A stretch of DNA of 64,000 nucleotides from Anaerococcus mediterraneensis (GTDB taxonomy: Bacteria > Bacillota > Clostridia > Tissierellales > Peptoniphilaceae), in contig NZ_LT635772.1 in NCBI RefSeq assembly GCF_900128415.1, positions 1,860,001-1,924,000 of the forward strand, given 5' to 3'. Shown piece by piece: positions 14,484 to 31,744 of the stretch (its first letter is position 1; every line of letters begins with the position of its first letter). The position numbers were made by a program, and so were the translations under genes. The notes beneath the pieces were generated by a model, which ran no database searches, had not been told where the DNA came from, and worked only from the letters and a program-made list of their open reading frames with translations.

Positions 14484-14573
14484 GCGGGATTGGCGGAACT
14501 GGCAGACGCGCAAGACTAAGGATCTTGTGACCGACTTTAGGTCGTGGAAGTTCAAATCTTCTATCCCGCACCA
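14484..14573 (+). tRNA. tRNA-Leu (anticodon AAG)
   Basis: A 90-base class II tRNA with encoded CCA. Acceptor GCGGGAT pairs with ATCCCGC, and discriminator A14570 precedes CCA (14571-14573). The anticodon stem CAAGA/TCTTG encloses loop CTAAGGA, so the anticodon at 14518-14520 is AAG, with U33 before it and G37 after it. A long variable arm (CCGACTTTAGGTCG) and the T-arm TTCAAAT support leucine. A34 is uncommon in bacterial leucine tRNAs. Confidence 0.92.
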
Positions 14574-14886: not shown

Positions 14887-15285
14887 TTATTGTAAATTTA
14901 ATTCCCTTTTTAAGCCTTCTTGTAGGATATAAGAAAAATTTAAATCCTTCTCCCTAGCCATAATGTCTAACCATTGTGGTATAGTCAAGGTTTTCTTTAT
15001 TGATTTATTATTTATTGCCTTTCTTACAGTTGGCATCCAAACACTTATCAAAGCTGTTTTTTGATTTTCTCCTACTTTTATATCCCTTAAATTAGTAGGT
15101 TTAGGAATTTCCTCATTCTCTTCTTCTAATTCAAACATCCATAATCCTAATACATCTTCAGCCATATATAGAGCTTCTTCATCCGTATCAGCACATGAAA
15201 AACACCCTGGCAAATCAGGAAACTCTATACTAATTCCATCATCATCGTAATAAAAAAGTGCAGGGTATACGTATTTGTCTTTCAT
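14887..15285 (-). CDS. hicB: HicB-family antitoxin
   Basis: A 132-residue HicB protein. The N-terminal partial RNase-H-like fold is recognisable from YPALFYYDDDGISIEFPDLPG followed by CFSCADTDEEALYMAEDVLG. The C-terminal part (TLTIPQWLDIMAREKDLNFS) looks like a ribbon-helix-helix DNA-binding segment. It normally neutralises HicA mRNA interferase and represses the operon. Here the adjacent hicA is dead, so the antitoxin is an orphan in this locus. Confidence 0.88.
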   Translation of the reverse strand: MKDKYVYPALFYYDDDGISIEFPDLPGCFSCADTDEEALYMAEDVLGLWMFELEEENEEIPKPTNLRDIKVGENQKTALISVWMPTVRKAINNKSIKKTLTIPQWLDIMAREKDLNFSYILQEGLKRELNLQ

Positions 15286-16797: not shown

Positions 16798-17790
16798 TTA
16801 TATGAATTCCTGTATAGTTCCATTTGGCTTTTGCTTCCAATACTGATCTATCAGCTGCTTTTCACTTAATATTATACCCTTATTTTTCTTGCTTTTAAAT
16901 GATAAATTAGCATTTGGGGATACCTTCATTTGCTTTTTTATTTCTTTCATTGCTAATTCAGGGCTTTTCCATCTCTTAGCCCTGTAAACACCATTTATCC
17001 CTTGCACTTGAACCTCGACTAATACTAACTTGCTTAAGTCTAGGTTCTTTTCAAGGATATTTTCAAGTTTTATTTCCTTATTTACTTGTCTTAATGACTT
17101 TTGAAATAAATCCTCACTTGTTTCTTCATCTTCTATTTCTGTATCATCTCCCCCGCCTTCTTCATCGTATCCATATGAGTCAAAGTCAAAGTCCATTGAG
17201 TCGCCGCTCGGCATCATTTGTTTTGATTGCAAGAAATATGGATTTGCTATTATATCTCCACCTTCTATTTCAGCTAGCCCCTTATCGGCTCTAACCTCAT
17301 TTATGGTCATGTATGATTCAGTTTTTCTCTTTGCTAGGTCTACTTGTTCAGACTCTGATTCATTGTCTAGGCCATCAAAGACAAAAACATATTCATCATC
17401 TAGGCTAAATCTTGATATTATATATTTATTTACAACATTTTCTATATATTGTAGTAGTGGCAATAGACCCTTTGCTTTTGATTGGTCTACCTTGTCTTTG
17501 TCACCTGAAAAAAGACTTGATCCCTTACCACCTACACCACCATTATTAGGGAAATTTATTTCTGCTGGATCTATTTTATAAACAGCACAAATGATATTGA
17601 TTAGATAGTTGATCCATTTTTCAAATACCATCTCCCCACCTGATTGGGCAATCTTTATAAATTCTAGCTCGCCTGGTAGGGTAAAGACTGGTATTTTCCA
17701 TGCGCCTTTTTGACCTGTTACCTGGGTTCGCCACTGTCTTTTAAATGATTCTAGGGTCTGCCTATCACCTGGTGCTGGACCATTCTTTTC
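16798..17790 (-). pseudogene. phage portal protein, N-terminally truncated
   Basis: The frame is open from 17790 to 16798 (330 residues) but has no start until M at 17631. The residues before that ATG still match portal sequence: NGPAPGDRQTLESFKRQW, GAWKIPVFTLPGELEFIKI. Next come CAVYKIDPAEINFPNNGG, a typical portal block, and DLAKRKTESYMTINEVRADKGL. The C-terminal third is acidic, then basic. The N-terminal part is missing, replaced by a TGA and a tRNA-like relic, so the gene is broken. In phages the portal is the DNA channel of the capsid. Confidence 0.8.
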
Positions 17791-18070: not shown

Positions 18071-18319
18071 TTAATACCACATTATCTTGCAATCTTTTAT
18101 GTCTCTTTCTCCCTCTGCCATATCTCTAAGTCCATTTAAGGCATAAATTGCATAAGGATAACTGCTATATTCTTTTTCATCGGTAGGGCTTAATTTCACC
18201 TTATAATCATCTAGATCTAAACAATTTACAGATACGATTCCGAACTCTTCCCAATCTTCAGGGTAATATTCTGCTCTTATCCAATTATCCTTTTTTATTA
18301 CGTTTTTTAATTTTAGCAT
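18071..18319 (-). CDS. hypothetical prophage protein
   Basis: An 82-residue acidic protein, MLKLKNVIKKDNWIRAEYYP, then EDWEEFGIVSVNCLDLDDYKV and LSPTDEKEYSSYPYAIYALN. The ATG at 18319 is chosen because GGAG lies six bases upstream; a longer GTG start would place that site inside the gene. It resembles small proteins of Firmicute phages but I cannot name it. It overlaps the truncated frame upstream by 35 bases. Confidence 0.5.
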   Translation of the reverse strand: MLKLKNVIKKDNWIRAEYYPEDWEEFGIVSVNCLDLDDYKVKLSPTDEKEYSSYPYAIYALNGLRDMAEGERDIKDCKIMWY

Positions 18320-18617
18320 AATATTCTCCACTTTTTTTATAATTATATTTTTCGCTTGCTAGTTTAGGAGCTTGTTCTTGGATTAGTTCATTAGCTATAA
18401 GCTTTTCTTCGTACATCTCGTGTTTTAGTAGTGTTAAATCATGTTTTTTAATATTGTCATTCATGATTCTGTTCCACGACTTGGCAATTTCAAAGCTAGG
18501 GGCAAATCTTTCTATACTTTTGCCTTCTAAATCGTTTTTAACAATAAAAATTCTTTTTTCTTTGGATTTCCTCTTTGTATATCCGGTATTTTTGGCTACC
18601 TGTCTTTGTAGGTAAGC
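18285..18617 (-). pseudogene. 5'-truncated prophage ORF
   Basis: An open frame of 110 codons with no plausible start, bounded upstream by TAG. It reads KNTGYTKRKSKEKRIFIVKN, then EGKSIERFAPSFEIAKSWNR and EEKLIANELIQEQAPKLA. The long open stretch with charged, helix-forming content suggests a real gene that lost its 5' end where the second hicA stub was joined. Family not recognised. Confidence 0.45.
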
Positions 18618-18644
18618 CTATCTTCTAGATCTTTTATCCTATTG

Positions 18645-18695
18645 TCCATTCTTGTTAAGTATCTTGAGTAGTTTTTTTGAGTTATAAGTCTTCAT
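18645..18695 (-). pseudogene. second hicA stub (5' end only)
   Basis: Seventeen codons MKTYNSKKLLKILNKNG almost identical to the start of the hicA at 15521, then an abrupt change to unrelated sequence. The upstream 60 bases are also similar to the hicAB promoter (TACATTAA...TATACGTCTTATTATAAGTAT) but the -35 box is lost. It is a direct repeat of the 15.5 kb locus, about 3.1 kb away. Confidence 0.7.
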
Positions 18696-18774
18696 AAGAA
18701 GCGGCCATCTTACATTAATTCTATACGTCTTATTATAAGTATATCGATGAAAAATAAAAAAGAAGCCTAAAAAA

Positions 18775-19005
18775 CTAGGCCTCTAATTCTTCTATTATGG
18801 GTTTTATATACTTATCAGCAAGTTTTTTCTCACCAATGGCGCACAAACTTTCATAGACAGTCTCAAACCTGTTTTCTTCAAAATTAATGACATCAGAATT
18901 AAAATACTCCAGTATATTAGCTATCTGTCCAAAATTTTCCTTGCCATCTACCTCTTCTAGAATCCTATCGATAAGGTCCCTTATGCTATTAATCTCTCTT
19001 TCCAT
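18775..19005 (-). CDS. hypothetical acidic small protein
   Basis: A 76-residue acidic protein, predicted mostly helical (MEREINSIRDLIDRILEEVD...KKLADKYIKPIIEELEA). The ATG at 19005 is chosen because GGAGG lies five bases before it; the upstream TTG overlaps that site. It sits between the prophage relic and the pyrimidine operon terminator. Function unknown; it could be a host gene or the edge of the prophage. Confidence 0.55.
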   Translation of the reverse strand: MEREINSIRDLIDRILEEVDGKENFGQIANILEYFNSDVINFEENRFETVYESLCAIGEKKLADKYIKPIIEELEA

Positions 19006-19075
19006 CCTAGCCTCCAAATAAAAATTTATCTTCTATATATAAATACCCTCTTTGTAAAATTAATAAAAAGCTCAA

Positions 19076-19108
19076 CAAAAAAAGATGAGGCTGGCTCATC
19101 TTTTTTTA
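19076..19108. terminator. bidirectional terminator of the pyrimidine operon
   Basis: AAGATGAG-GCTGG-CTCATCTT (19082-19102) flanked by an A-run and a T-run. It ends the eleven-gene operon on the minus strand. Confidence 0.8.
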
Positions 19109-19150
19109 AAAGGATCATACAACATATAATTTATTATTAGGATTATCGTT

Positions 19151-20293
19151 TTATTTTAAAATAGATCTTGCTATTACAAGTTTTTGAACTTCTGAGGTTC
19201 CCTCATATATTTCTGTAATTTTTGCATCTCTGTACATTCTCTCTAGTGGGAAGTCTTTCATGTAGCCGTAGCCACCGTGGATCTGTAGGGCTAGGTTTGT
19301 GACTTCTCTAGCTGTTTGTGATGCAAATAATTTTGCCATGGCTGCTTCTTTGCTATGGCGTATACCTTTATCTGCAAGCTGAGCTGCTATGGTTGTAAGG
19401 GCTCTTGCTGCTTGGATTTTGGTTTCCATTGTAGCTAGGTACCATTGTATACCTTGTAGGTCTGCTATTGGTCTTCCAAATTGCTCACGTTCTTTGGCAT
19501 ATTTTATAGAAAGGTCTAAAGCTCCTTGGGCTATACCAACTGCTTGGGCAGATACACCGATTCTAGCTGTATCTATTAGAGAAAGGGCTATAGATAGGCC
19601 TTTGTTTTCCTCGCCTAGCAAGTTTTCTTTTGGTACTCTACAGTCTTGGAATACTAGTTCTACTGTTTCTGATGCTCTAATACCCATTTTGTCTTCTACT
19701 TTTCCGTAGGTGAAGCCTGGTGTTCCTTTTTCAACTATAATTGCTGATAGGCCACGAGCTTTGGCAGCTGGGTCTGTTAGGGCAAATACTAATACGTATT
19801 CTGCAGCTTTTCCGCTTGTTATAAAGGTTTTACTACCGTTTAAAACATATTCGTTTGTGCTTTCGTCAAAAACTGCTGTTGTTTTTGTTGCTCCAGCATC
19901 AGATCCTGCTCCTGCTTCTGTTAGGGCAAAAGCTCCTAATTTTCCACCGCTTGTGATGTTTTCTAGGTATTTATCTTTTTGTGCATCTGTCCCAAATTTT
20001 TGTAGGGCGTGTTGAAGGATAGATGATATAGAATATATGCCACCTACTGCTCCATCTACTTTGGCAAGCTCTTCTACTGCAACTATTTTTTCTAGTTGGC
20101 CCATGCCTGCTCCGCCGTATTCTTCGGCAACACCTATGCCTGTTAGGCCCATGTCTACAAGGTCAGCCCAAACATCGCTAGGAAATACTGCAGTTTTATC
20201 TCTTTCTTCTGCTGTAGGTCTTAGTTCTTTAATTGCATAATCTCTAACTAGGTCTCTAATGTCTATCTGGTTTTCTGTTAAAAGATTTTCCAT
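19151..20293 (-). CDS. acyl-CoA dehydrogenase, proposed acryloyl-CoA reductase
   Basis: A 380-residue FAD enzyme of the acyl-CoA dehydrogenase family and normal short-chain length. Signatures are FALTEAGAGSDAG, LQIHGGYGYMKD and the catalytic base E364 in ITEIYEGTSE, in the position used by butyryl-CoA dehydrogenase. It is the last gene of the operon, 7 bases after the lyase-like genes. Placed after beta-alanyl-CoA deamination, its likely job is to reduce acryloyl-CoA (or methacrylyl-CoA) to the saturated acyl-CoA. That role is inferred from context; no etfAB genes are in the operon, so the electron donor must be encoded elsewhere. Confidence 0.88.
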   Translation of the reverse strand: MENLLTENQIDIRDLVRDYAIKELRPTAEERDKTAVFPSDVWADLVDMGLTGIGVAEEYGGAGMGQLEKIVAVEELAKVDGAVGGIYSISSILQHALQKFGTDAQKDKYLENITSGGKLGAFALTEAGAGSDAGATKTTAVFDESTNEYVLNGSKTFITSGKAAEYVLVFALTDPAAKARGLSAIIVEKGTPGFTYGKVEDKMGIRASETVELVFQDCRVPKENLLGEENKGLSIALSLIDTARIGVSAQAVGIAQGALDLSIKYAKEREQFGRPIADLQGIQWYLATMETKIQAARALTTIAAQLADKGIRHSKEAAMAKLFASQTAREVTNLALQIHGGYGYMKDFPLERMYRDAKITEIYEGTSEVQKLVIARSILK

Positions 20294-20300
20294 ATTTCAC

Positions 20301-20669
20301 CTATTTTACTTCATATACATATTGGGCTACTGTACATAATGGAGGATTTTCAAGAACGTCTATAGAAGATGGGTATTCAGGATTTTCTGGATACTCGATT
20401 ATTTTGAAGGCTCTAACTTCTATTAGGGCTTTGTTACCTTCTTTTCTTTTTATTCTTGCTATAAACTCCATATAGTCACCTGCTGCAAGAGGTTCATAAA
20501 GTCTAACTTTTTTAACCTTGGTCATTGTGCCTACGTTGCTAAATACTTTTGCCATCAATCTTTTGGCACAGTCTTCCATTAGGGTAAGGCCTCTGGCACC
20601 ATTGACTACTCCACCACCATAAAATACATCTCGGTCGCTCATTCTATAACGCATTGTCATTGTTTCCAT
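20301..20669 (-). CDS. hotdog-fold CoA ammonia-lyase-like subunit A
   Basis: A 122-residue protein of the 3-aminobutyryl-CoA / beta-alanyl-CoA ammonia-lyase type. Start ATG 20669 follows AAGGAG by six bases; the upstream TTG contains that site. It keeps the N-terminal block RMSDRDVFYGGGVVNGARGL, equivalent to the YxGNLVNGAR block of known lyases as I remember them, and the strand LYEPLAAGDYMEF. The helix that in those enzymes carries GDVxTE reads EDCAKRLM here. It abuts its paralogue (20688-21152). I infer that the two form one enzyme that removes ammonia from beta-alanyl-CoA. Confidence 0.72.
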   Translation of the reverse strand: METMTMRYRMSDRDVFYGGGVVNGARGLTLMEDCAKRLMAKVFSNVGTMTKVKKVRLYEPLAAGDYMEFIARIKRKEGNKALIEVRAFKIIEYPENPEYPSSIDVLENPPLCTVAQYVYEVK

Positions 20670-20687
20670 AATACTCTCCTTATCCAA

Positions 20688-21152
20688 TTAAAACTCTACA
20701 TCATCTTCTGGGAAGTCTTCTAGTTCTGCCCATGGATCTTTTACAAGGCCATCTGGTTGTAGGCCTCTTTGTAGGTGTTTTTTAACAACTAGTCTTACAT
20801 GTCCTTTAGAGCAAAGTATTGGTTCATCATGCCAAATCATTTGACCAACTTTTCCGCTTTCTTTATCAGGACTTGCTAGTTTGAATACTTCTATAAGACA
20901 GTCTCTTGATGTATTTCCAATGTGGGTCATTGTTGCCTTGTATTCCATCATGTCGCCAACATAGACATCTTCATATATTTCTACATCGTGATAGCCTAAG
21001 CATAATGATTCATCGCCATCGTTTAATATCATTTGTTCTGTCTCAACATCGCCTATAAAATCAAATTGTCTACCTACTGGGACTCTACCGTCACAGTCTG
21101 AAGCATCTTGTGTAGTCATGTTGTAGCTTAAAAATGAAACTTTTCTTGTCAT
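20688..21152 (-). CDS. hotdog-fold CoA ammonia-lyase-like subunit B
   Basis: A 154-residue paralogue of the preceding family. It keeps the second half of the lyase site: IGDVETEQM (residues 33-41), then NDGDESLCLGY and VYVGDMMEY, which closely follow beta-alanyl-CoA:ammonia lyase as I remember it. The first block, YxGNLVNGAR in that enzyme, is degraded to CDGRVPVGRQ. So each paralogue retains what the other has lost. It starts eight bases after the CoA-transferase gene. A deaminase role is inferred from family and context. Confidence 0.72.
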   Translation of the reverse strand: MTRKVSFLSYNMTTQDASDCDGRVPVGRQFDFIGDVETEQMILNDGDESLCLGYHDVEIYEDVYVGDMMEYKATMTHIGNTSRDCLIEVFKLASPDKESGKVGQMIWHDEPILCSKGHVRLVVKKHLQRGLQPDGLVKDPWAELEDFPEDDVEF

Positions 21153-21160
21153 AATTTAAC

Positions 21161-22348
21161 CTATATTACCCCTTCTTCTTTAAGTTGTTTTTCTTCTTCT
21201 TCTGTTAGATTGAATACTTCTCTGTTGTGTTGGCCTAAAAGTGGTGATGGAAAATTGATCTGTCCTGGTGATTCAGATAATTTTGGTACTATACCTTGCA
21301 TCTTTACCTTGCCCATTGTTGGGTGGTCAACTTCTACAATCATATCTCTGGCTTTGATATGTGGATGATTTATAGCTTCTGCTACATCAAGGACTGGACC
21401 ACATGGTACTCCTGCTTCTGCCATCATTTCTTCTAGTTCAGCCTTGGTGTACTCCAAAGTGAATTCTCTAATGGTGTTTTGTAAGTCTGGAAGATAGTTT
21501 TCACACCTAAATTCATTTGTTTCGTACCTAGGATCTTCTATCAATTCTTCTTTGCCCATAACTGTACAGAATTTTGCCCACAAGTTGTCATTTCCAACAC
21601 CTAGGGCTACAAAACCGTCCTTGCATTCATATACGTCAAATGGAGCTATAGATGGGTCTATGTTTCCATTTCTTTGTGGAGCAACGCCCTCCATAAGGTA
21701 TCTTGGAATAGCATTTTCTAGGATAGAAAATATTGTATCAACCATAGATACGTCTACTAGTTGGCCCTTGCCTGTTCTTTCTCTATATTGTAGAGCTATA
21801 AGTGCTCCGACCATTTGATAGATTCCTGAAACATGGTCAGCTACAGATGGACCTACTTTTACTGGTTGGGTATCTCTAAAACCTGTTAGGTTTATGATCC
21901 CACCCATAGCTTGAGCTACTATGTCATAGCATGGTCTTTCTGCTAATGGACTTGTTTGTCCAAATCCAGAACCTGAAACATATATTAGTTTAGGGTTAAT
22001 TTCTTTTAGGGTATCATAATCTATTTTTAATTTTTTTGTTACACCACCCTTGTAGTTTTCACATACAAAGTCAGCATTTTTTACAAGGTCGTAGAACATT
22101 TGTAGACCTTTTTCAGATTTTAAGTTTAGTGTAACACCTTTTTTGTTTCTATTTGAATATGCGAAGAATCCACTTTCTCCACTTTTTTCATCTATAGGTC
22201 CCCAAGTTCTGCATTGCTCACCATTAACTGGTTCTATCTTTATAACATCTGCTCCAAAATCGGCAAAAAACATTGTGCAAAACGGACCACTCAAAGCTGA
22301 GGTTAGGTCTATAACTTTCAAACCCTCAAGTGCACCATTATTAATCAT
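21161..22348 (-). CDS. class III (CaiB/BaiF) CoA-transferase
   Basis: A 395-residue family III CoA-transferase, normal length. The N-terminus GLKVIDLTSALSGPFCTMFF and FGADVIKIEP are typical. The catalytic aspartate is D171 in GPSVADHVSGIY, equivalent to Asp169 of formyl-CoA transferase. In this operon the likely reaction moves CoA from propionyl-CoA (or acetyl-CoA) to beta-alanine, giving beta-alanyl-CoA and free acid. That assignment is inference from neighbours. 31 bases downstream of the amidohydrolase gene. Confidence 0.88.
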   Translation of the reverse strand: MINNGALEGLKVIDLTSALSGPFCTMFFADFGADVIKIEPVNGEQCRTWGPIDEKSGESGFFAYSNRNKKGVTLNLKSEKGLQMFYDLVKNADFVCENYKGGVTKKLKIDYDTLKEINPKLIYVSGSGFGQTSPLAERPCYDIVAQAMGGIINLTGFRDTQPVKVGPSVADHVSGIYQMVGALIALQYRERTGKGQLVDVSMVDTIFSILENAIPRYLMEGVAPQRNGNIDPSIAPFDVYECKDGFVALGVGNDNLWAKFCTVMGKEELIEDPRYETNEFRCENYLPDLQNTIREFTLEYTKAELEEMMAEAGVPCGPVLDVAEAINHPHIKARDMIVEVDHPTMGKVKMQGIVPKLSESPGQINFPSPLLGQHNREVFNLTEEEEKQLKEEGVI

Positions 22349-22379
22349 ATTTTCTCACTTTCTATATCATTAAATATTT

Positions 22380-23639
22380 TTATTGGGCATCTCTCTTTAG
22401 TATTGCATTTAATAGTACAGATGCACCTTGTGTACATTGTTCTGTTGATGTAAATTCTGGTTCGCAGTGTGAATGTCCGTCTTTAGATGGAACAAAGATC
22501 ATTGTTGTTGGGACCATGTATGATACGAATTGTGCATCATGGCCAGCACCTGAATTTATTTTTTGGTTAGAATATCCAAGTTCATTTACAGATTCTTGTA
22601 CATAGTTAACTAGTTGTTCGTCAAAGTAAACAGTATCTCTTGTCCAAGCTACTTCATAGTCTGTTGTACAACCAACTATTTCTTTTGGTATGCTCTTGAT
22701 TACTTCTACTACTTGTTCTATAACTTCTGCTTTTTCGTGTCTAGCATCTATAGAGAATTCTACATAGTCAGGAATAACAGTGTGTACGTTTGGATGGCAG
22801 ATGATTTCACCTGTTGTATAAACAAGTTCTTCATCAAGTTTGTCTAGCTCATCATGTAGGTATTGAAGAACTTTTGCTGCTCCGTATAGGGCATCGTGAC
22901 GATATTTCATTGGTGTTGTACCAGCGTGGTCAGAAACACCGTAGATTTTGATTCTGTAGTTAACCATACCAAGTACGCATGTAACAACTCCAACATCCTT
23001 GTTTTCTGCTTCTAGGATTGGACCTTGTTCGATGTGCATTTCAAAGTTTGCACAGTAGTCATCTGGGTTTAGTCTGTTAGCTTTATCGCCTTTAAATCCT
23101 GATTTTTCTAGGGCTTCTTTGAAGGTTGTTTCTTTATCAAGAACTGATTTTGAGTTCATCATATTTTCATAAACGAAGTTTTTCTTGATCTCTTCTGGTA
23201 GGTAGTCATACATAACAATACCTGATGACATCATTGCTGGTGGATATAAAGATCCTTCTTCGTTTGTCCATACCATTGCGGTGATATTGTGTTTGTGAGG
23301 GATGTTTTGCTCATGGATTGTTTCTAGAACTTCCATAGCTGACATTACACCTAAAATACCATCGTAGTTACCACCATTTCTTACAGAGTCTGTGTGTGAT
23401 CCTGTAACTATAGCTGGTAGTTCTGGATTTGATCCATTAAGTGTTGCATACATATTTCCTATGTCGTCTGTTTTAACTTCTGCACCTATTGCTTCCATTC
23501 TTTTTTTGAATTCGTTTCTAGCTTGGATATCTGCTTCAGAAAAACAATAACGTGTTATTCCACCGTGTCCTGCATCTCCAAATGTGCTAAAAGTATCAAT
23601 TTTATCTTGCATTCTTGCTTCATTACATTTATAAGTCAT
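22380..23639 (-). CDS. N-carbamoyl-beta-alanine amidohydrolase (M20/AllC family)
   Basis: A 419-residue metal-dependent amidohydrolase of the allantoate / N-carbamoyl-amino-acid hydrolase group. Metal-site motifs are GSHTDSVRNGGNYDG and TNEEGS. The dimerisation-domain motif YRIKIYGVSDHAGTTPM and the C-terminal GAGHDAQF are also present. It should hydrolyse N-carbamoyl-beta-alanine to beta-alanine, CO2 and NH3, since it shares an operon with dihydropyrimidinase. An allantoate or hydantoin role is less likely because no purine-catabolic genes are here. It overlaps the ThrE C-terminal gene by 11 bases. Confidence 0.88.
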   Translation of the reverse strand: MTYKCNEARMQDKIDTFSTFGDAGHGGITRYCFSEADIQARNEFKKRMEAIGAEVKTDDIGNMYATLNGSNPELPAIVTGSHTDSVRNGGNYDGILGVMSAMEVLETIHEQNIPHKHNITAMVWTNEEGSLYPPAMMSSGIVMYDYLPEEIKKNFVYENMMNSKSVLDKETTFKEALEKSGFKGDKANRLNPDDYCANFEMHIEQGPILEAENKDVGVVTCVLGMVNYRIKIYGVSDHAGTTPMKYRHDALYGAAKVLQYLHDELDKLDEELVYTTGEIICHPNVHTVIPDYVEFSIDARHEKAEVIEQVVEVIKSIPKEIVGCTTDYEVAWTRDTVYFDEQLVNYVQESVNELGYSNQKINSGAGHDAQFVSYMVPTTMIFVPSKDGHSHCEPEFTSTEQCTQGASVLLNAILKRDAQ

Positions 23640-24078
23640 TTTTTCTCCTCACTTTATAAAAATCATACATTTTTGTAAATATTATCTCTAGGGCTATACC
23701 ACCGCTTATGGCTATGGCTATATTTACTGAATTAGCCCCATATTTCAATACGTTTTCCCAATTTGTTATAAACAAGTACTCCATTGTCAAAAATAGTGAA
23801 CGCCCTGGTATCAAGGGTATAAATCCTACGGCGTGGTAGATGGTAGCTGGTGCTTTGTTTCTCCTTGAAATTATTTGGGAGTAAAGTCCCAAAAACAAGG
23901 ATGCAAAAAAGTATGACTGGTATTCATCTTTTGTATAGATGAAGGTTATTATATATACAGCCCAGTCTAAAAGTCCAGCAAGACTTGCCCAAAACAAATC
24001 TTTTCCTTTTATATTAAACAAAAGAGCAAAGCCCAATGATCCAATACCAGCAGCTATTATTTGTATAATCTTATCCAT
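23629..24078 (-). CDS. ThrE-family transporter, C-terminal half (DUF3815-like)
   Basis: A 149-residue membrane protein with about four to five helices (GSLGFALLFNIKGKDLFWAS, HAVGFIPLIPGRSLF). It corresponds to the small half of threonine/serine exporters of the ThrE family; here the transporter is split into two genes, as in many Firmicutes. It lies between the amidohydrolase gene (11-base overlap) and the large half (7-base gap). Its position suggests it moves an amino-acid-like intermediate or product such as beta-alanine, which is inference. Confidence 0.8.
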   Translation of the reverse strand: MDKIIQIIAAGIGSLGFALLFNIKGKDLFWASLAGLLDWAVYIITFIYTKDEYQSYFFASLFLGLYSQIISRRNKAPATIYHAVGFIPLIPGRSLFLTMEYLFITNWENVLKYGANSVNIAIAISGGIALEIIFTKMYDFYKVRRKNDL

Positions 24079-24085
24079 AGCGCCC

Positions 24086-24829
24086 TCACCTAAGTATAGT
24101 TGCTAGGGCAAAACCAATGCAGATAGCCATAGCTATGAACAAGGCTTCAAATAATTTTATAGCCCCTGTCAAGATATTGTCCATAAACATCTCTTTGAAA
24201 GAATTTGTAAAAAGAAGGCCTGATATCAAAATCATTGTTATACCTATACTTATATGTTCACTAGATAGTCCAAGTCCTATGTCTACTGCAAGTGACGATA
24301 GACGTGCTATCACAAAGCCACATACGCAAATAACTATAAATCTATTTATATTTATCTTTCTAAGTAGGGCTTCTGCAAGCCTCATAAGGCAAGCTATAAA
24401 ACCACCTATGATGGCATCTTTAAAGCTTGATCCAAAGAAGATACAAAAACCAAAAGCTATGAGAAAGTAGGATAATAAAATCCTAATTTGTCCAGCTCCT
24501 TCTAGGTTTTTGATCTCTTTTATTTCTTTTTCTATATCAGAAAAGTCTATCTGGTCATTGCAAATACGCCTAGACAGGTTGTTAAACCTAGCAAGCGATT
24601 CCAGATTGTAGGACATAGTCAGTACTCTTCTTGATTGGGTATAGGGTTTATTTTCAAATTCTGTGCTTGTTACTATACTATAAGGAGTTGCAAAGACATT
24701 GACGTTTTCTGCACAAAAGTGTCTACAAATACGACCTATGGTATCTTCAACCCTATTTATTTCTGCACCAGATTTTAACATGCCTGCGCCAATGTCTATA
24801 GCATAGGTCAAAATTCTATCGTAGTCCAA
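24086..24829 (-). CDS. ThrE-family transporter, N-terminal half (DUF1212-like)
   Basis: A 247-residue membrane protein. The soluble N-terminal region (IDIGAGMLKSGAEINRVEDT, then VFATPYSIVTS) is the ThrE hallmark, followed by about five helices. The start is a TTG at 24829 with AAGGA eight bases upstream; the first ATG would delete part of the conserved GAGMLKSGAE block. It is the partner of the gene immediately downstream. Confidence 0.83.
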   Translation of the reverse strand: MDYDRILTYAIDIGAGMLKSGAEINRVEDTIGRICRHFCAENVNVFATPYSIVTSTEFENKPYTQSRRVLTMSYNLESLARFNNLSRRICNDQIDFSDIEKEIKEIKNLEGAGQIRILLSYFLIAFGFCIFFGSSFKDAIIGGFIACLMRLAEALLRKININRFIVICVCGFVIARLSSLAVDIGLGLSSEHISIGITMILISGLLFTNSFKEMFMDNILTGAIKLFEALFIAMAICIGFALATILR

Positions 24830-24866
24830 TAGCTTTTTCCTTTCTTGTCAACTCCTATTTATTATC

Positions 24867-26243
24867 TTAGTATTTTTGAGCTTGTCTCTTTACAAATTTA
24901 CCCATACCTGGTTTTCCAACAAATTCACCATCATCATAGATTAGGTTTCCTCTTAGGTAGGTTTGTACAGGATAACCTGAGAATTTCTTGCCTTCCCAAA
25001 CTGTGTGGTCACATAGGGTGTGCATATTATCTATTGACACTGTGAATTCTTTGTTTTTATCATAGATTACAATGTCTGCATCTTTGCCTACTGCAAGTTC
25101 ACCTTTTTGTGTACAACCGTAGATTTTTGCTGGGTTTGTTGAGCAAAGTTCTACTGCTCTTTCAAATGTGATCTTGCCTTTATTTGCAGCGTCTAGCATA
25201 TATGGATATAGGTTTTCTATACCTGCTATACCATTTGGTATTTTTGTAAAGTCATCTTTACCCCAATCTTTTTCATATGATTGGAATGGGCAGTGGTCAG
25301 TTGCTATTGTGTCAACCATACCATTTTGTACTGCTTGCCAGATTGCATCTTGGCTTTCTTGTCCCTTCATAGGAGGTGAGCATACAAAGTTTCTACCGTC
25401 TTCTCTTTTATAGACATCACTTGTAAACTCTAGGTATTGTGGACAAGTTTCTATAAATACAGTTGCTCCTTCTAGTTTAGCATCTATAGCTGCTTGTAAA
25501 CCTTCTTTATCAGCCATATGAACTACCATTAGTGGGGCATCAAGGTTTTTAGCCCAGTGAACTGCTCTTTTATCTGCTTCTGCTTCTACAAATTCTGGTC
25601 TACTTAGGTAGTGGTACCATGCACTTGTTTTGCCTTCTTTTAAAAACTCTTCGACTCTTAGGTCTATCAAATCTGGGTTTTCAGCATGAACATTGATTAG
25701 TCCGCCAAGCTCTTTAGCTCTTTCTAGAAGTCTAACGAAGGTTCCATCATCAGTCATCATGCCTTCTTTTTTATAAACCATGAATACCTTAAAGCTTGTA
25801 ATACCTTCATTTATCGCTGTTTCCATCTCATCAATGATTTCTCCATCATTAAGGTCTGTGATACAAACGTGGGATGCATAGTCTATGCAGGCTTCCTTTT
25901 CTAGAACAGCTTTTTTCTCATTTATAAGTTCCATTATAGAGGTGCCTTTTCTTTGTACTGGGTAATCAAATACTGTTGTTACACCACCACAAGCTCCACC
26001 TCTTGTACCTGATTCATATGTATCAGATGAAACTGTTCCACCAAATGGCATTGCCAAGTGTGTATGAGAATCTATACCACCTGGAAGCACAAGTTTGCCT
26101 TCTGCATCTACTATCTTTTCGGCATCACCCTCAATGTTTGCAGCTATCGCTACAATTTTTTCATCTTTAACAGCAAGGTCTGCCTTAAAAGAATTGCTTG
26201 CAGTAACTATTGTTCCGTTCTTAATTAATAAATCGTATTTCAT
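24867..26243 (-). CDS. hydA: dihydropyrimidinase (hydantoinase family)
   Basis: A 458-residue cyclic amidohydrolase that opens dihydrouracil or dihydrothymine to the N-carbamoyl beta-amino acid. The binuclear metal ligands are H60 and H62 in DSHTHL, the carboxylated lysine K152 in SFKVFM, H186 in VHAEN, H242 in VVHMA and D316 in ATDHCPF. The length and PPMKG motif fit D-hydantoinase and dihydropyrimidinase. The start ATG has AGGAGG. Its place between PreA and the carbamoyl hydrolase argues for a pyrimidine substrate. Confidence 0.93.
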   Translation of the reverse strand: MKYDLLIKNGTIVTASNSFKADLAVKDEKIVAIAANIEGDAEKIVDAEGKLVLPGGIDSHTHLAMPFGGTVSSDTYESGTRGGACGGVTTVFDYPVQRKGTSIMELINEKKAVLEKEACIDYASHVCITDLNDGEIIDEMETAINEGITSFKVFMVYKKEGMMTDDGTFVRLLERAKELGGLINVHAENPDLIDLRVEEFLKEGKTSAWYHYLSRPEFVEAEADKRAVHWAKNLDAPLMVVHMADKEGLQAAIDAKLEGATVFIETCPQYLEFTSDVYKREDGRNFVCSPPMKGQESQDAIWQAVQNGMVDTIATDHCPFQSYEKDWGKDDFTKIPNGIAGIENLYPYMLDAANKGKITFERAVELCSTNPAKIYGCTQKGELAVGKDADIVIYDKNKEFTVSIDNMHTLCDHTVWEGKKFSGYPVQTYLRGNLIYDDGEFVGKPGMGKFVKRQAQKY

Positions 26244-26255
26244 ATAACCTCCTTA

Positions 26256-26774
26256 TTAGTCATCGAAAAGTTTAAGAACACTCCATTCCTCTTGGTCATC
26301 ATTTTCTTTTGCAGTCATATCGTAGATAAGATTGCCAAGTTTTACACATAGATAACCTGCTATATTGCCAATAATAGTACAGACAACTACCATTTCCCAA
26401 TTGCCACCTGTAGCAAAGGCGGAAAAACCGCCCATAAAGGTACAAGGTGCATATCTTAATAGATCTATGTGTACTATGTAGCAAATAACCCAGGTGAAAA
26501 ATCCTGTAACTACTGCTGAAAATAGAACACTATCTGGAAATATATTGCTTAGTGCTATTATGGTACAACCTATTATAACACCTATTATATTTGAAGCTGA
26601 AGATCTAAATACTGCTGATTTGCTAGCACCAGCTGTGAAAAATGAGGTTATTCCTACAAATCCTAGCCAAGTAGCAAAAAGATCTGGGAAGCTCATTGAT
26701 AGTTTAGCTGCAACATAAGCCCATATCCCACATACTATGCCACTACCGACTGCGCCTGCGCCTATCCTTTTCAT
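26256..26774 (-). CDS. DUF1097-type membrane protein
   Basis: A 172-residue protein with about five hydrophobic segments and glycine-rich turns (GAGAVGSGIVCGIWAY, FVGITSFFTAGASKS, TFMGGFSAFATGG). I take it as DUF1097, whose function is unknown. It lies 11 bases after preA and 12 bases before dihydropyrimidinase. In this operon it might be a channel or carrier for uracil, thymine or a product; no classical uracil permease is present. Confidence 0.65.
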   Translation of the reverse strand: MKRIGAGAVGSGIVCGIWAYVAAKLSMSFPDLFATWLGFVGITSFFTAGASKSAVFRSSASNIIGVIIGCTIIALSNIFPDSVLFSAVVTGFFTWVICYIVHIDLLRYAPCTFMGGFSAFATGGNWEMVVVCTIIGNIAGYLCVKLGNLIYDMTAKENDDQEEWSVLKLFDD

Positions 26775-26785
26775 AGCTACCTACC

Positions 26786-28039
26786 TTATCTATATTCGTG
26801 TTTAACTTTTACTTCGTATTCTTCTCTACCTTCTTTAAACTTAACTTCTCCTGGTAAGATACAATCAAATACTGGACAAACGTTTAAGCATAGGTGACAA
26901 CCAACACAATTATCATTTATAATTGGTTTTCTTTCTTTGCTATCCCAATCAATCGCTTGGTGAGCAGCATCGAAACATGATACATAACATCTACCACATT
27001 TTACGCACTTATCATAGTTGATTTCTGGGATGATCTTGAAATCTCTGTCTATTTCGTCAGCACCAACTATATTTGGAAGTGCAAGACCTACTAAATCTTC
27101 TAGTCTATCAATTCCTCTTTCGTCCATATAGTGGCTTAGACCGCTTATCATATCCTCAACTATTCTGTAACCGTATTGCATAACCGCTGTTGTTACTTGT
27201 AGGTTGCTAGCACCAACTAATAGGAACTCAAGGGCATCCTGCCATGTTTCTATACCACCCATACCTGTTATAGGCACATCTTTAAGTGGTTCATATTGTT
27301 TCATTTGTGTTATAAATCTAAGAGCTATAGGCTTAACTGCCGCACCAGAATATCCTGATATAGATGATTTACCATTTATAGCTGGCATTGCTGTCATAGA
27401 CTCTAAGTCTAGGTTTGTTATAGCCTTGATAGTGTTTATTGCTGCTATACCCTTAGCACCTGCTTTGACAGCTGCTTCTGCTGGTATTTCCATATGACCG
27501 ATATTTGGTGTCATTTTTGCAACAACTGGTAGGTGTGTATTTTCTACACAAAGTTTTGTATAATGAGCAACTAACTCTGGGTTTTGACCAACGTCAGATC
27601 CCATCTCGTGTGAGTCCATTTGTGGACAAGAGAAGTTAAGCTCTATTATGTCTGCTCCAGCTTCTGTAACTTTCTTTGTTAGATAAATCCACTCTTCGTC
27701 ATTTGATCCCATTATAGAAACTGCCATGACCTTTGTTGGGTAATCTTTTTTAAGTCTTGATATATACTCTAAGTTAAGCTCTAGAGGTTTGTCAGAGATC
27801 ATCTCCATATTTTTGAAACCTGTCCAAGCTAAATCTTCTTTTCTACCGATATCAAATCTTGGAGAGCACTCATCTGGTATATAAACACCGATTGTTTTAT
27901 AGTAAACTCCTGCCCAGCCAGCTTCAAAAGCTTTTTTGATCATTTCATAGTTTGATCCAACTGGTGATGATGATAGGAAGAATGGGTTCTCACATTTAAC
28001 GCCTAAAAAATCAATTGATAAATCTTTCTTAACTGCCAT
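26786..28039 (-). CDS. preA: dihydropyrimidine dehydrogenase catalytic subunit PreA
   Basis: A 417-residue protein with an FMN-binding TIM barrel like dihydroorotate dehydrogenase ([42 protein letters not shown]), then two [4Fe-4S] motifs near the C-terminus: [11 protein letters not shown] and [11 protein letters not shown]. With PreT it reduces uracil and thymine to the 5,6-dihydro forms using NADH. The active-site loop matches what I recall of E. coli PreA rather than mammalian DPD. Gap to preT is 9 bases. Confidence 0.94.
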
Positions 28040-28048
28040 ATCTATCTC

Positions 28049-29254
28049 CTATTTCAAGTATGCTAATATTTCTAAAGCTGCGCCCTTACCTTCGGCAACT
28101 GCTTTAACTACTGTCTCGCCGCCATTTCTAGCATCGCCTGCTATAAATACGCCGTTTCCTTTTTTTACACCTTCATAATCATCTTCTAGCTTTTGACCTA
28201 TAGCAAATACTACTGTGCTAGCTTTAAGATTCATAGTAGAAACTTCATCCCAAGATTTAAACTCAACAAGTTCAACCTTTCCATCTCCGTGGATTTTTTC
28301 TGGTGCAAATCTTGTGTGAACTGGAACGCCTAGACTATAAGCATAGCTTAGCTCTTGGATGTTAGCTGGAGCTTCTTCTATTGATCTTCTATATACTATA
28401 GAAACATTTTTTGCTCCTGCTTGTTTTGCACTTGTAGCGCAGTCCATAGCAACGTCTCCACCACCTACTATAACGACATCTTCACCAAGCTCGATCTTAC
28501 CATCGTTTTCATACATTTCTTTCAAGAAGTCTACAGCGGTATAAACTCCTTTTAAATCTATACCCTCAATTTCTGGTAGCCAAGTTTTCCATAGTCCTAC
28601 ACCAACAAATACAGCATCATATTCTTTCTTAAGATCTTCTATTTGATCATATGTAATCTTCTTGCCAAACTCAAATTTGACACCTAATTCTTCTACTTTT
28701 GATATGTCATAATCAACTGTATTTCTGCTAAGTCTTGATGGGTTGATACCGTATCTTAGTACACCACCAGCTTTTTCGTATTGCTCATAGATAGTTACAT
28801 CTACACCATTTTTAGCAAGCTCTGCTGCAGCTGCTAGTGATGCTGGACCTGATCCTATACAAGCAACTTTTTTGCCAATGCTTTCACCTTTTTTAAGGAC
28901 TTGCATCTTGTGAATTCTTTCTTGGTCCATTGCAAAACTTTGTAGTCTACCAATCTCGATTGGTTTGTCAATACCAGTTCTTGAACAAGCTTTTTCACAA
29001 AGTTTTTCATAAGGACATACTAGTGCACAGGTTGCTCCAAGGATATTGTTTTCCCTAATTGTCTCAGCAGCACCTTTGAAGTTTCTAAATCTTATAGATC
29101 TGATGAACTTGCCTGGATCTGTTTTTGCCGGACAATCCTGACTACATGGTGCATCCTCACATAGTAGGCATCTTGTAGCCTCTTGCATTGCACCTCTGAC
29201 ATCTAGTGGCTCGTATGATAACTCGCCATAAGATAATTTTCTGGTCTTACTCAT
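28049..29254 (-). CDS. preT: dihydropyrimidine dehydrogenase NAD-binding subunit PreT
   Basis: A 401-residue flavoprotein related to the glutamate synthase small subunit. Cysteines for Fe-S clusters lie in CLLCEDAPCSQDCP and CALVCPYEKLCEKAC. The FAD motif is GSGPASLAA and the NAD(P)H motif is VVGGGDVAMDCA. It passes electrons from NAD(P)H to PreA. It is the first gene of the eleven-gene operon; its ATG follows GGAGGAG. It is divergent from the MerR-type regulator, with about 276 bases between. Confidence 0.94.
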   Translation of the reverse strand: MSKTRKLSYGELSYEPLDVRGAMQEATRCLLCEDAPCSQDCPAKTDPGKFIRSIRFRNFKGAAETIRENNILGATCALVCPYEKLCEKACSRTGIDKPIEIGRLQSFAMDQERIHKMQVLKKGESIGKKVACIGSGPASLAAAAELAKNGVDVTIYEQYEKAGGVLRYGINPSRLSRNTVDYDISKVEELGVKFEFGKKITYDQIEDLKKEYDAVFVGVGLWKTWLPEIEGIDLKGVYTAVDFLKEMYENDGKIELGEDVVIVGGGDVAMDCATSAKQAGAKNVSIVYRRSIEEAPANIQELSYAYSLGVPVHTRFAPEKIHGDGKVELVEFKSWDEVSTMNLKASTVVFAIGQKLEDDYEGVKKGNGVFIAGDARNGGETVVKAVAEGKGAALEILAYLK

Positions 29255-29350
29255 ATTTTCTCCTCCAGATATATATTTTTTTAAAACCTTTTCGGTTTTA
29301 ATGACAATGTTTGCAAGGCATCCTTTAATATGAATTGCCTCTTCGTATAT

Positions 29351-29400
29351 AATATATCACAGCGGACGAAAGTTTTCAAGTTAAATTTTTAACTTTCTCG
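29351..29400 (-). promoter_or_regulatory. preT operon promoter and candidate MerR operators
   Basis: On the minus strand TTGAAA (29374-29379), a 17-base spacer and TATATT (29351-29356). Just upstream and overlapping the -35 is a dyad AAGTTAA-ATTT-TTAACTT (29378-29395), and a wider pair GAAAGTT/AACTTTC frames it. This is a likely site for the divergent regulator. A classic MerR-type 19-base spacer is not evident. Confidence 0.5.
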
Positions 29401-29530
29401 TATTTTTTTTAAAACTTTATAGCGATTCATAGTTTTTCTTTTATCCCCTAAAATTTTTTCCAAATTTGATTGATAATTATTAACTTTATAGTTTAATAGA
29501 CTTAGTAAATATGTAAAAAGAGAGTAAATT

Positions 29531-30406
29531 ATGAACGATTTATATACAATTGGAACTATTTCCAAACTTAGCAATATACCAACAGAAACCCTACGATACT
29601 ATGACAAAATTGGTCTTTTCTGTCCTGAACATAGGGATGAGACAACCGGTTATAGGTATTATACAAAGGATGGCCTTACCGCTCTTTTGATCATCAGAAG
29701 GCTTAGAAACCTAGGTTTTTCTATAGAAGATATAAGGAGTGCCCTAGAGGATAAAACCCTTGACCACCTCAAAGCTTTATTATTAAAAAAAGAAAAAGAA
29801 TATGATAAGTCAATAAAAATCCTTCAAGCAAGACAATATGCTTGCAATGTTGCCTATGAAAAAATAGTCTCTGGTGAGAATATAAGAAAAAATTTCGATA
29901 GAAATGCAAGATTTGAAGAGACTGTCTCTCTTGAGAAAATCCCAAAAAGAGAGCTTATTTTCTCTAGAAAAATTATGAAAGCATATAAAAACTCTGACCT
30001 ATCGCTTTCTAGATGGATTGATATTTATGAAAAATGTACGGAAAATGGTCTAGAGATGAAAGGGTCAATAATAGTTATCTATCACGACGATCCCCTCGAT
30101 CAGTTTTTGCTAAAAGATTGTGACCTGGAGTTTGCTATTGAGATTAATTCTGAAGATGCTGCTAGGCTCTCTAAGGATAAGACTAGGTCTTGGGGAGACT
30201 TTACGGCTTGCACATCTTATTTTTTAGGAGATTATTCTGGCATTATGACTAGACACGTCCAGATGATCAGGTGGATAAATGCAAATGGTTATGAGATTTG
30301 TGGACCTATTTCAGAAGAATTTATCATCTCTCCTCTAGATGTCTACAATCCAAGCGATCACGTGACAAAAATTATTATCCCAGTTAAAAAAAATGATGAA
30401 AAATAA
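29531..30406 (+). CDS. MerR-family regulator with GyrI-like effector domain
   Basis: A 291-residue BmrR-type regulator. The N-terminal winged helix reads YTIGTISKLSNIPTETLRYY and GLFCPEH, followed by GYRYYTKDGLTALLIIRRLR. A coiled linker (about residues 80-110) leads to a C-terminal domain of GyrI-like length (about 135-290), which usually binds small molecules. It is divergent from preT and is the only regulator near the operon, so it probably controls it. The ligand could be a pyrimidine or a breakdown product. Ribosome site is weak (AGAGAG). Confidence 0.85.
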   Translation: MNDLYTIGTISKLSNIPTETLRYYDKIGLFCPEHRDETTGYRYYTKDGLTALLIIRRLRNLGFSIEDIRSALEDKTLDHLKALLLKKEKEYDKSIKILQARQYACNVAYEKIVSGENIRKNFDRNARFEETVSLEKIPKRELIFSRKIMKAYKNSDLSLSRWIDIYEKCTENGLEMKGSIIVIYHDDPLDQFLLKDCDLEFAIEINSEDAARLSKDKTRSWGDFTACTSYFLGDYSGIMTRHVQMIRWINANGYEICGPISEEFIISPLDVYNPSDHVTKIIIPVKKNDEK

Positions 30407-30409
30407 AAA

Positions 30410-30452
30410 AATCCCTTTCTAAATCATTTGATTTAAAAAGGGATTTTATTTT
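30410..30452. terminator. bidirectional terminator between merR and hisS
   Basis: AATCCCTTT...AAAGGGATT with an inner AAATCA/TGATTT pair (30410-30446), A-run on one side and T-run on the other. It separates convergent genes. Confidence 0.85.
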
Positions 30453-30457
30453 TTTAC

Positions 30458-31744
30458 CTATAAATTGTCAAAGCCTATGCTTTCTTGATCGCCTGTTTCC
30501 ATATTTCTGATTGTGACAGTTTTATTTTCTCTCTCATCTGCCCCAATGATATAGGTATATTTGACACCGATTTTATCTGCATAGTTGAATTTCTTTTTTA
30601 ACTTGCCAGATTCTAGGTAAATATCCGCATTTTTACCCGATTCTTGGACCTTGTTTAGTATATCTATAGCGTATAGGTTTTCTTCTTCGCTCATAGGTAT
30701 GATTAGGATTTCTGTAAGCTTCATTGCCTCTTTATCCACAAGGCCAAGCTCTTTTAGCTGGTAAAATAGCCTGGTTAGACCAATTGACATACCAACTCCT
30801 GGTAGTTTTTGCTTGGTGAAATTATCAGCTAATTCCTCATACCTACCACCAGAAGAAACTGATCCTATAGACTCATGGCCCTTGATAAAGGTTTCATAAA
30901 CTGTACCTGTATAATAATCAAGGCCCCTAGTTATGGCTGGGTCTATTTTTATATTTTTATCCTCTATGCCAAATTCTAGCATATATTTATAAACTGTTTT
31001 TAGCTCTTCATAGCCTGTCTGGTATAGGTCATTTTCTACAAAACCGTCTAGGCTTTCTAAAAGATCCTTGTTTTCTAGGTCTGACCCTATAAAGGCTAGG
31101 ATTTTTTCTGCCTTTTTGCTATCAACAATCTCTAGTAATTCTTCCTTGGTTTTTTCTAGGCCAATCTTATCTTTTTTGTCGATCAGCCTTAGGATATCAG
31201 TAGTATTTTCTATATCAAGTGACTTTAAAAAACCATTTAACAATTTCCTGTTGTTGATCTTGAAAGTAACCTCAGGAGTGTTTAGCTTTTTAAAAATCTC
31301 ATAGATAACCTTTGGCAAAATAGCATCATTGGCTATGGCTAGGTTGTTGTGGCCAATAATATCTATATCGCATTGGTAAAACTCCCTATACCTGCCCTTT
31401 TGATTTCTCTCACCTCTATAGACCTTGCCTATATGGTATCTTTTGAATGGGAAGTTGAGGTCTGAAAAGTGCTCTGCTACATACCTAGCAAGTGGTACTG
31501 TTAGGTCAAATCTCAGGCTCATATCCCTTGTCTCTGAGGCGATCTCGTAAATTTGTTTTTCGGTTTCTCCACCGCCCTTGGCAAATAAAATCTCATTTTT
31601 TTCTATAAGGGGAGTATCTATTGGCAAAAACTGATACTTTTTGAAGGTCTCCTCTATAATATTTTTCATCTTGTTAAAGGCTAGCTGGTCTTCTGGCAAA
31701 AGCTCCATAATGCCGGCTATGGTTGATGGTTTTACTATTTTCAT
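30458..31744 (-). CDS. hisS: histidine-tRNA ligase
   Basis: A 428-residue class II aminoacyl-tRNA synthetase that charges tRNA-His. Motif 2 region is RYHIGKVYRGERNQKGRYRE, histidine motifs include LDYYTGTVYETF and SSGGRYEELADNF, and the anticodon-binding domain starts near residue 335. Length is normal. No T-box or other leader is seen in the 75 bases upstream. Confidence 0.96.
   Translation of the reverse strand: MKIVKPSTIAGIMELLPEDQLAFNKMKNIIEETFKKYQFLPIDTPLIEKNEILFAKGGGETEKQIYEIASETRDMSLRFDLTVPLARYVAEHFSDLNFPFKRYHIGKVYRGERNQKGRYREFYQCDIDIIGHNNLAIANDAILPKVIYEIFKKLNTPEVTFKINNRKLLNGFLKSLDIENTTDILRLIDKKDKIGLEKTKEELLEIVDSKKAEKILAFIGSDLENKDLLESLDGFVENDLYQTGYEELKTVYKYMLEFGIEDKNIKIDPAITRGLDYYTGTVYETFIKGHESIGSVSSGGRYEELADNFTKQKLPGVGMSIGLTRLFYQLKELGLVDKEAMKLTEILIIPMSEEENLYAIDILNKVQESGKNADIYLESGKLKKKFNYADKIGVKYTYIIGADERENKTVTIRNMETGDQESIGFDNL

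Follow-up and report, generated by a model that had tools for sequence, protein, structure and literature searches.

An eleven-gene operon of Anaerococcus mediterraneensis predicted to encode the reductive fermentation of uracil to propionate

Can the breakdown of uracil and the fermentation of beta-alanine to propionate be parts of one pathway, encoded together? The question is raised by a set of genes in a 64,000-nucleotide stretch of the Anaerococcus mediterraneensis genome, here called the window (bases 1,860,001–1,924,000 of a genome that is one contig of 2,080,215 bases). Eleven open reading frames (ORFs) lie on the minus strand between positions 29254 and 19151, beginning with preT and ending with an acyl-CoA dehydrogenase gene; domain and family-model matches give the order preT, preA, DUF1097, pydB, ThrE, ThrE_2, pydC, cat3, lyA, lyB, acrC. 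We consider it very probable that the operon specifies a fermentation in which uracil is reduced to propionate and electrons are consumed. A chain of this kind, passing through a coenzyme A (CoA) transferase, had been put forward in a first-pass annotation and remains the best reading: AcrC and PreA score above the cut-offs of their curated models, cat3 is 50% identical to the CoA-transferase gene that neighbours acl2 in a related genome, and 12 of 49 related loci hold full gene sets. What is new is the joining of known kinds of enzyme, with a diverged lyase, in an arrangement that recurs across anaerobic Bacillota; the chemistry is not of a new kind. Among the matches listed in a search of open-licence full texts, none dealt with uracil fermented to propionate or with this operon; subscription journals and preprints lay outside its scope.

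Proposed pathway

In the first half, PreTA would reduce uracil to dihydrouracil, and the dihydropyrimidinase and the carbamoylase would open the ring, releasing CO2 and ammonia and leaving beta-alanine. In the second half, the cat3 product would move CoA from propionyl-CoA to beta-alanine; the lyase LyA-LyB, predicted to be a two-subunit enzyme of hotdog type, would eliminate ammonia from beta-alanyl-CoA, yielding acryloyl-CoA; and AcrC, drawing on an EtfAB whose genes lie outside the operon, would reduce acryloyl-CoA to propionyl-CoA, the donor for the next beta-alanine. By atom balance the net reaction would be uracil + 2 H2O + 4[H] -> propionate + CO2 + 2 NH3. Such a CoA cycle would yield no direct ATP; the gain would be the regeneration of NAD+, plus reduced ferredoxin if the Etf bifurcates. 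The DUF1097 protein would probably import the pyrimidine, and a divergent MerR-type gene probably controls the operon. The substrates, the flux direction and what the DUF1097, ThrE and MerR proteins do are all inferred from sequence and gene order.

The claim that the complete pathway lies in one operon was too strong: etfA and etfB are found in 42 and 41 of the 49 related loci, but outside this operon.

The CoA-transferase and the acryloyl-CoA reductase

Genome G461 links the operon to characterised beta-alanine fermentation. Its Acl2 is identical to the crystallised beta-alanyl-CoA:ammonia lyase 4mtu over all 144 residues, and G461 therefore appears to be Anaerotignum propionicum or a very near relative. 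Beside acl2 are a class III CoA-transferase gene, whose product has 397 residues and a mass of 43.9 kDa, and a gene for a MerR protein 39% identical to that of the window. This CoA-transferase is probably act, because it adjoins acl2 and its mass fits the 42 kDa given for ACT in PMC13042692. The window cat3 is identical to it at 196 of 395 positions, and is 88% identical to a protein labelled 'uncultured Anaerococcus sp.'. According to PMC13067684, Cp_act was the sole enzyme tried that loaded CoA on beta-alanine significantly, the activity of Pct being marginal. A class I Pct as the CoA carrier was considered and set aside: the single class I gene lies outside the operon, at C1:37762-38475, and Pct is reported as barely active on beta-alanine in the same paper.

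AcrC exceeds the cut-off of NF042972, the model for acryloyl-CoA reductase, while three other acyl-CoA dehydrogenases of the same genome fall short of it (539, 457 and 422 bits). Six relatives from the related loci were scored with this model, and three of them pass (L041, 703 bits; L043, 704; L033, 685). Exactly one gene lies above the cut-off in each of the five genomes searched; in G461 the sole such gene is the acrC of the pyrimidine-linked cluster described below, and in G043, taken to be Peptoniphilus stercorisuis, it is another gene, elsewhere, at 720 bits.

The two-subunit lyase

The only solved structure matched by the lyase genes is 4mtu (E 5.7e-16 for LyA and 4.7e-07 for LyB). The first-pass annotation had invoked the CoA ammonia-lyase family; the pair lies outside the curated Kal family. 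LyA-LyB is, on its sequence, a putative diverged two-subunit lyase. Eight single-chain lyases (one Acl and seven Kal-like) share 50 invariant columns; 14 of these are kept in A only, 9 in B only, 6 in both and 9 in neither, the remaining 12 being mixed. A complementary split of these columns was rejected, as the number kept in both subunits (6) is not significantly smaller than the 7.9 expected by chance (P 0.20). Of the conserved segments, B holds most of the N-terminal one and A most of the central one (P 0.0095, with segments chosen after looking), and an active site shared between the subunits is a reasonable guess only. In structure models (mean pLDDT, the predicted local distance difference test, 72 for LyA and 85 for LyB), the predicted order of strand, helix and strands fits a hotdog fold. 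Lysine fermentation of the Kal type was also rejected as the source of the lyase genes: the Kal cut-off is missed, and a search of the genome with the lyA alignment gave no match besides lyA itself.

Probably the true start of lyB is the ATG at 20669, since AAGGAG stands just upstream and this start fits the lyB relatives.

The pyrimidine half

PreA lies above its model cut-off and the adjacent gene carries the domains of PreT, which together identify PreTA; among the NCBIfam models listed for PreT itself, none reached its cut-off. The model matched by pydC is named, at family level, for allantoate amidohydrolase, and its solved relatives include the N-carbamoyl-beta-alanine amidohydrolase 8c46; its substrate is read as N-carbamoyl-beta-alanine from gene context. 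The two-gene ThrE/ThrE_2 exporter perhaps carries a beta-amino acid. Neither a beta-alanine aminotransferase nor a semialdehyde reductase, the PydDE extension, is among the families of the eleven operon proteins.

Related loci and their distribution

A scan with the lyA alignment of a genome collection representing 84,980 species by a single genome each gave 49 loci, reaching at most 10 kb to each side. Genes in them were counted from ORF clusters and from tblastn matches above identity thresholds. What is observed directly is which gene families are present, in what order, how often they recur and with what they co-occur. Beside lyA, lyB was found in 47 loci, cat3 in 45, acrC in 44 and MerR in 34. 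The trio of cat3, lyA and lyB is present in 45 of 49, with acrC in 42 and with etfAB in 40; the grouping is not due to chance, since cat3 and lyB both accompany lyA in 45 loci. At least one pyrimidine-degradation gene lies within 10 kb in 23 loci. The 12 loci holding preT, preA, pydB, pydC, cat3, lyA, lyB, acrC, etfA and etfB belong to Clostridium thermopalmarium, two Anaerotignum, a Tyzzerella genome, three Lachnoanaerobaculum, Lachnospiraceae oral taxon 107, two Peptostreptococcus, Clostridium sp. OS1-26 and C. carboxidivorans.

A search for the same eleven-gene order in other genomes, proposed as a check on the operon, found the exact order in none of the 49 loci. The closest is that of Pseudoramibacter alactolyticus, where preT, preA, pydB, ThrE, ThrE_2, pydC, cat3, lyA and lyB are collinear with the window, DUF1097 stands before preT, and no acrC is present within the 20-kb locus. 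The Peptoniphilus stercorisuis locus (L008) starts with cat3 and continues with two Acl genes, lyA, lyB, an acyl-CoA dehydrogenase gene, DUF1097, pydB and pydC. The first of its Acl proteins matches 4mtu over its full length (E 4.7e-48); the two Acl-type genes (L008:8957-9373 and L008:9448-9864) are adjacent, and their products share the first 40 residues. G461 has, apart from its acl2 locus, a second one (L083) with preA, preT, pydC, an NCS1 permease, pydB, MerR and acrC-etfB-etfA-cat3-lyA-lyB.

A CoA-transferase tree was built from 44 sequences: the window, three act-like sequences, L083 and 39 of the 45 cat3 loci. The other cat3 loci dropped out, mostly because the ORF fell outside 300–450 residues and otherwise because it was not called as such; they include the four pyrimidine-linked loci of Lachnoanaerobaculum type. 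The window cat3 is nearest to that of P. stercorisuis (78% identity), then to L007 and then to P. alactolyticus. Pyrimidine linkage changes eight times on the tree, at least six of them on well-supported branches, although short contigs can hide linkage; the coupling of pyrimidine and CoA genes has therefore been gained or lost repeatedly.

PreA above its cut-off was found in 41 of the 49 lyA genomes and in 17 of 291 genomes of the class, the present one included. In addition, some lyA genomes, among them G134 (Maledivibacter halophilus, the genome of L011), have PreA-like proteins of about 200–260 bits, below the cut-off, beside or in place of PreA; PydAc of the ferredoxin type, or UacX, may account for some of these. 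At family level, lyA-type genes (at least 272 bits) occur in 2 of 130 genomes, the present one and G043, while seven more have Kal-like genes only (53–81 bits). In the genus, a cat3 orthologue occurs in 1 of 31 genomes, the present one, the remaining matches being at most 32% identical. This patchy presence would fit gain by transfer, or loss elsewhere.

Weighing the evidence

Several observations weigh against uracil fermentation as the function of the operon. AcrC passes its cut-off by a small margin (645.8 against 640 bits), and three of the six relatives lie below it (L007, 626; L051, 574; the acyl-CoA dehydrogenase of L008, 463). No etfAB is among the eleven genes. The identification of act in G461 draws on gene position and protein size instead of a deposited accession. 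Both lyase subunits are far below the cut-off of 160 bits of the Kal model NF052388 (65.5 and 63.2), and neither alone holds all the columns conserved in single-chain lyases; we consequently do not class the pair as Acl and propose only that it works in the same manner. Pyrimidine genes are missing within 10 kb in 26 of the 49 loci, partly through contig ends, and PreA above its cut-off is missing in 8 of the 49 lyA genomes, so the CoA module also exists without this uracil reductase. The enrichment of PreA (Fisher 3.8e-31) is uncorrected for relatedness, and some genomes stand in both sets. Finally, among the 16 other PreA genomes of the class a lyA-type gene (at least 212 bits) occurs in five, and two more have Kal-like genes only (60–66 bits). 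With the 41 of 49 above, this indicates that the module mostly accompanies PreA, and that PreA does not imply the module.

The loci without pyrimidine genes and the genomes without PreA also favour a mere co-transcription of two unrelated halves, in which the pyrimidine genes supply only nitrogen and beta-alanine and the CoA genes serve a different beta-amino acid, for example 3-aminobutyrate or one derived from lysine; the resemblance of both lyase subunits to Kal, the 3-aminobutyryl-CoA lyase of lysine fermentation, points the same way. We nevertheless judge this unlikely, given an acrC above the acryloyl-CoA reductase cut-off, a cat3 that resembles the presumed Act, the company of Acl with cat3, pydB and pydC in P. 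stercorisuis, and a coupling that changed repeatedly yet recurs.

Thymine might instead be the main substrate, converted through 3-aminoisobutyrate and methacrylyl-CoA to isobutyrate by chemistry parallel to the uracil branch, and PreTA and dihydropyrimidinase enzymes generally accept thymine; but the closest characterised relatives are enzymes of acryloyl-CoA and beta-alanyl-CoA, with no pointer to a methyl group, which makes this very improbable. We give equally little credence to a pathway that ends at beta-alanine, for pantothenate or for export by ThrE, with the CoA genes running backwards or only clearing toxic acryloyl-CoA. Beta-alanine is indeed a precursor of pantothenate, and the two-gene exporter lies amid the pyrimidine genes here as in P. 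alactolyticus; on the other hand, the ThrE genes occur in only 1 of the 49 loci, against 44 for acrC, 42 for etfA and 41 for etfB, and a salvage role has no need of a CoA-transferase cycle. Fermentation of uracil to propionate thus stands as the preferred explanation.

Electron supply, transport and regulation

The two PF01012 (ETF-domain) matches of the genome form one pair at C1:25609-26909, beside a butyryl-CoA-dehydrogenase-like gene, and the EtfAB for AcrC would have to come from this pair. For its EtfB, and for the EtfB of the module in A. neopropionicum, the top-scoring structures are 4kpu, 6fah and 5ol2, whose Etfs belong to bifurcating complexes, and the genome has two Rnf-Nqr subunit matches. 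On the other side, the acryloyl-CoA reductase of Clostridium propionicum is not known to bifurcate; bifurcation in the reduction of acryloyl-CoA is possible. A bolder version of the proposal, in which uracil is a four-electron terminal acceptor of Stickland type in anaerobic Bacillota, a bifurcating Etf supplies the Rnf pump with reduced ferredoxin, and the lyase is a new heteromeric enzyme with an active site shared by two half-degenerate subunits, seems to us doubtful as a whole, if conceivable. Two acyl-CoA dehydrogenases on contig G000:C1 (L003:697-2625, 642 residues; L004:958-2637, 559 residues, ending at window base 171) are apparent dehydrogenase-EtfA fusions: on visual inspection their C-terminal part resembles the region of EtfA that binds FAD.

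Among the 23 pyrimidine-linked loci, several of them near relatives, DUF1097 occurs in 12, an NCS1 permease in 7, both in none and neither in 4. As the two never occur together, DUF1097 may replace the pyrimidine permease. Four uracil/xanthine-type permeases are encoded in the genome outside the operon. A cluster of BrnQ-type transporters is found in 14 of the 49 loci (L011, L017, L020 and others), nine of them without a nearby pyrimidine gene, and is a candidate carrier of beta-alanine.

The MerR relatives in the 34 loci are 36–49% identical to the window protein, one being cut by a contig end. A palindrome, GTTAA-N4-TTAAC, lies at 29380-29393 in the promoter-like site of preT and also before module genes in five other loci. 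It was tried as a shared operator (6 loci including the window, against a maximum of 2–3 for any motif in five shuffles) and rejected; little is made of it because three of the five other loci are near relatives and, of nine occurrences across the 49 loci, three lie away from module promoters.

Comparison with known systems

Clostridium (Anaerotignum) propionicum reportedly ferments beta-alanine with Act, Acl1/Acl2 and an acryloyl-CoA reductase, as Herrmann in 2005 and Hetzel in 2003 are said to have described. The window operon would share with it activation by CoA transfer, elimination of ammonia from beta-alanyl-CoA and Etf-linked reduction of acryloyl-CoA, and its CoA-transferase and MerR are homologous to those beside acl in G461. 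It differs in that its lyase is a diverged A/B pair, not one chain, and in that its genes stand together with those for the breakdown of uracil. G461, with its 4mtu-identical acl2, also carries the A/B pyrimidine-linked set, at a separate locus.

The reductive pyrimidine pathway, whose genes are named PydABC with PydD/PydE or MSDH downstream in PMC7332683, likewise runs from uracil through dihydrouracil and N-carbamoyl-beta-alanine to beta-alanine; unlike it, the window operon has neither aminotransferase nor malonic semialdehyde enzyme, and beta-alanine would be reduced through CoA esters. The same paper describes Clostridium clusters with ferredoxin-dependent PydAc, similar in the anaerobic reduction of uracil, whereas the window has PreT, an NAD(P)H/FAD subunit; uracil was tested there as a nitrogen source, and what becomes of beta-alanine in its organism is not followed. 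In Anaerostipes hadrus, the cluster ycdZ-preTA-hydA also brings together DUF1097, preT, preA and dihydropyrimidinase, but has, according to PMC11036815, no beta-ureidopropionase homologue, and 5-fluorouracil halts at the ureido acid. The beta-valine pathway of Pseudomonas SBV1 (PMC4619459) is similar in its CoA-ester route and in the lyase-catalysed removal of ammonia from a beta-amino acid, and unlike the window in using an ATP-dependent ligase and lyases of the enoyl-CoA-hydratase type, unrelated to known CoA ammonia lyases.

If the proposal is true, two textbook half-pathways become one. Uracil derived from RNA would then take up electrons and yield propionate in anaerobes, which among the loci include Lachnoanaerobaculum, Peptostreptococcus, Anaerotignum and Eubacterium. 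These genera are known from the gut and mouth. Such bacteria would also be predicted to carry fluoropyrimidine drugs beyond alpha-fluoro-beta-alanine. Genes that had no role are thereby given a proposed one: a two-subunit lyase, a family of beta-alanine CoA-transferases, a regulator of MerR type, and DUF1097, which may import pyrimidines. Since a genome resembling the classical beta-alanine fermenter carries the set, the question can be put to a long-kept culture-collection strain.

Operon organization and neighbouring genes

Eleven tightly packed genes on one strand, closed by a bidirectional terminator, had been described at the outset, and the present analysis agrees (Table 1). The gaps, in operon order, are 9, 11, 12, 37, 7, -11, 31, 8, 0 and 7 bases; the value of 0 between lyA and lyB follows from the TTG start taken for lyB, and the ATG start would give 18.

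Table 1. Features of the operon and its flanks in window coordinates
Feature	Position	Strand	Proposed role	Basis
Terminator hairpin	19077-19107	.	Two-way terminator after acrC	AAAAAAAGATGAG-CCAGC-CTCATCTTTTTTT, flanked by A run / T run
acrC	19151..20293	-	Acryloyl-CoA reductase / propionyl-CoA dehydrogenase, EtfAB-requiring	NF042972, 645.8 bits (cut-off 640)
lyB	20301..20687	-	Ammonia-lyase subunit B	4mtu match; much of N-terminal Acl/Kal segment kept
lyA	20688..21152	-	Ammonia-lyase subunit A, hotdog-type	Central Acl/Kal segment kept
cat3	21161..22348	-	Class III CoA-transferase, read as propionyl-CoA:beta-alanine CoA-transferase (Act-like)	PF02515
pydC	22380..23639	-	M20 carbamoylase, read as N-carbamoyl-beta-alanine amidohydrolase (-> beta-alanine + CO2 + NH3)	NF006771, 497.4 bits (cut-off 399)
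ThrE_2	23629..24078	-	Membrane protein, second half of exporter	PF12821
ThrE	24086..24829	-	Membrane protein, first half of two-gene exporter	PF06738
pydB	24867..26243	-	Dihydropyrimidinase (dihydrouracil -> N-carbamoyl-beta-alanine)	TIGR02033, 488.3 bits (cut-off 393.25)
DUF1097	26256..26774	-	Membrane protein, candidate pyrimidine importer	PF06496
preA	26786..28039	-	FMN and Fe-S catalytic subunit of dihydropyrimidine dehydrogenase	NF006183, 598.9 bits (cut-off 335)
preT	28049..29254	-	NAD(P)H/FAD and Fe-S subunit of dihydropyrimidine dehydrogenase (uracil -> dihydrouracil)	Fer4_20 + Pyr_redox_2; 9 bases before preA
preT promoter-like site	29351..29393	-	Weak promoter-like site	TTGAAA, 17 bases, TATATT
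MerR	29531..30406	+	Divergent MerR-type regulator, probable operon regulator	PF13411

The hairpin could act in both directions because it is flanked by an A run and, opposite, a T run. Its stretch folds better than shuffled sequences (z -2.1, 8 of 200 shuffles equally good), and it is not among the matches of a consensus terminator scan of 18300-30500. In the same region promoter-like sites number 50 (43.1 +- 5.9 in shuffles) and terminator-like sites 7 (7.2 +- 2.9); these counts, at the level of shuffles, are therefore silent, for or against, on internal promoters. Foreign base composition was considered and dropped, a G+C content of 37.5% in the operon against 35.8% in the window not being telling.

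A fragment of a phage portal-protein gene (window 16798-17631) lies 1.5 kb downstream of the operon, near a HicB-like gene (14887-15285) and a tRNA-Leu (14484-14573); the fragment and the HicB-like gene are perhaps the remnant of an integrated element. Farther away, two giant ORFs, at 43515-51974 (2819 residues) and 51976-59208 (2410 residues), encode surface-protein-like products with Listeria-Bacteroides repeat domains, and with Cna_B in the first.

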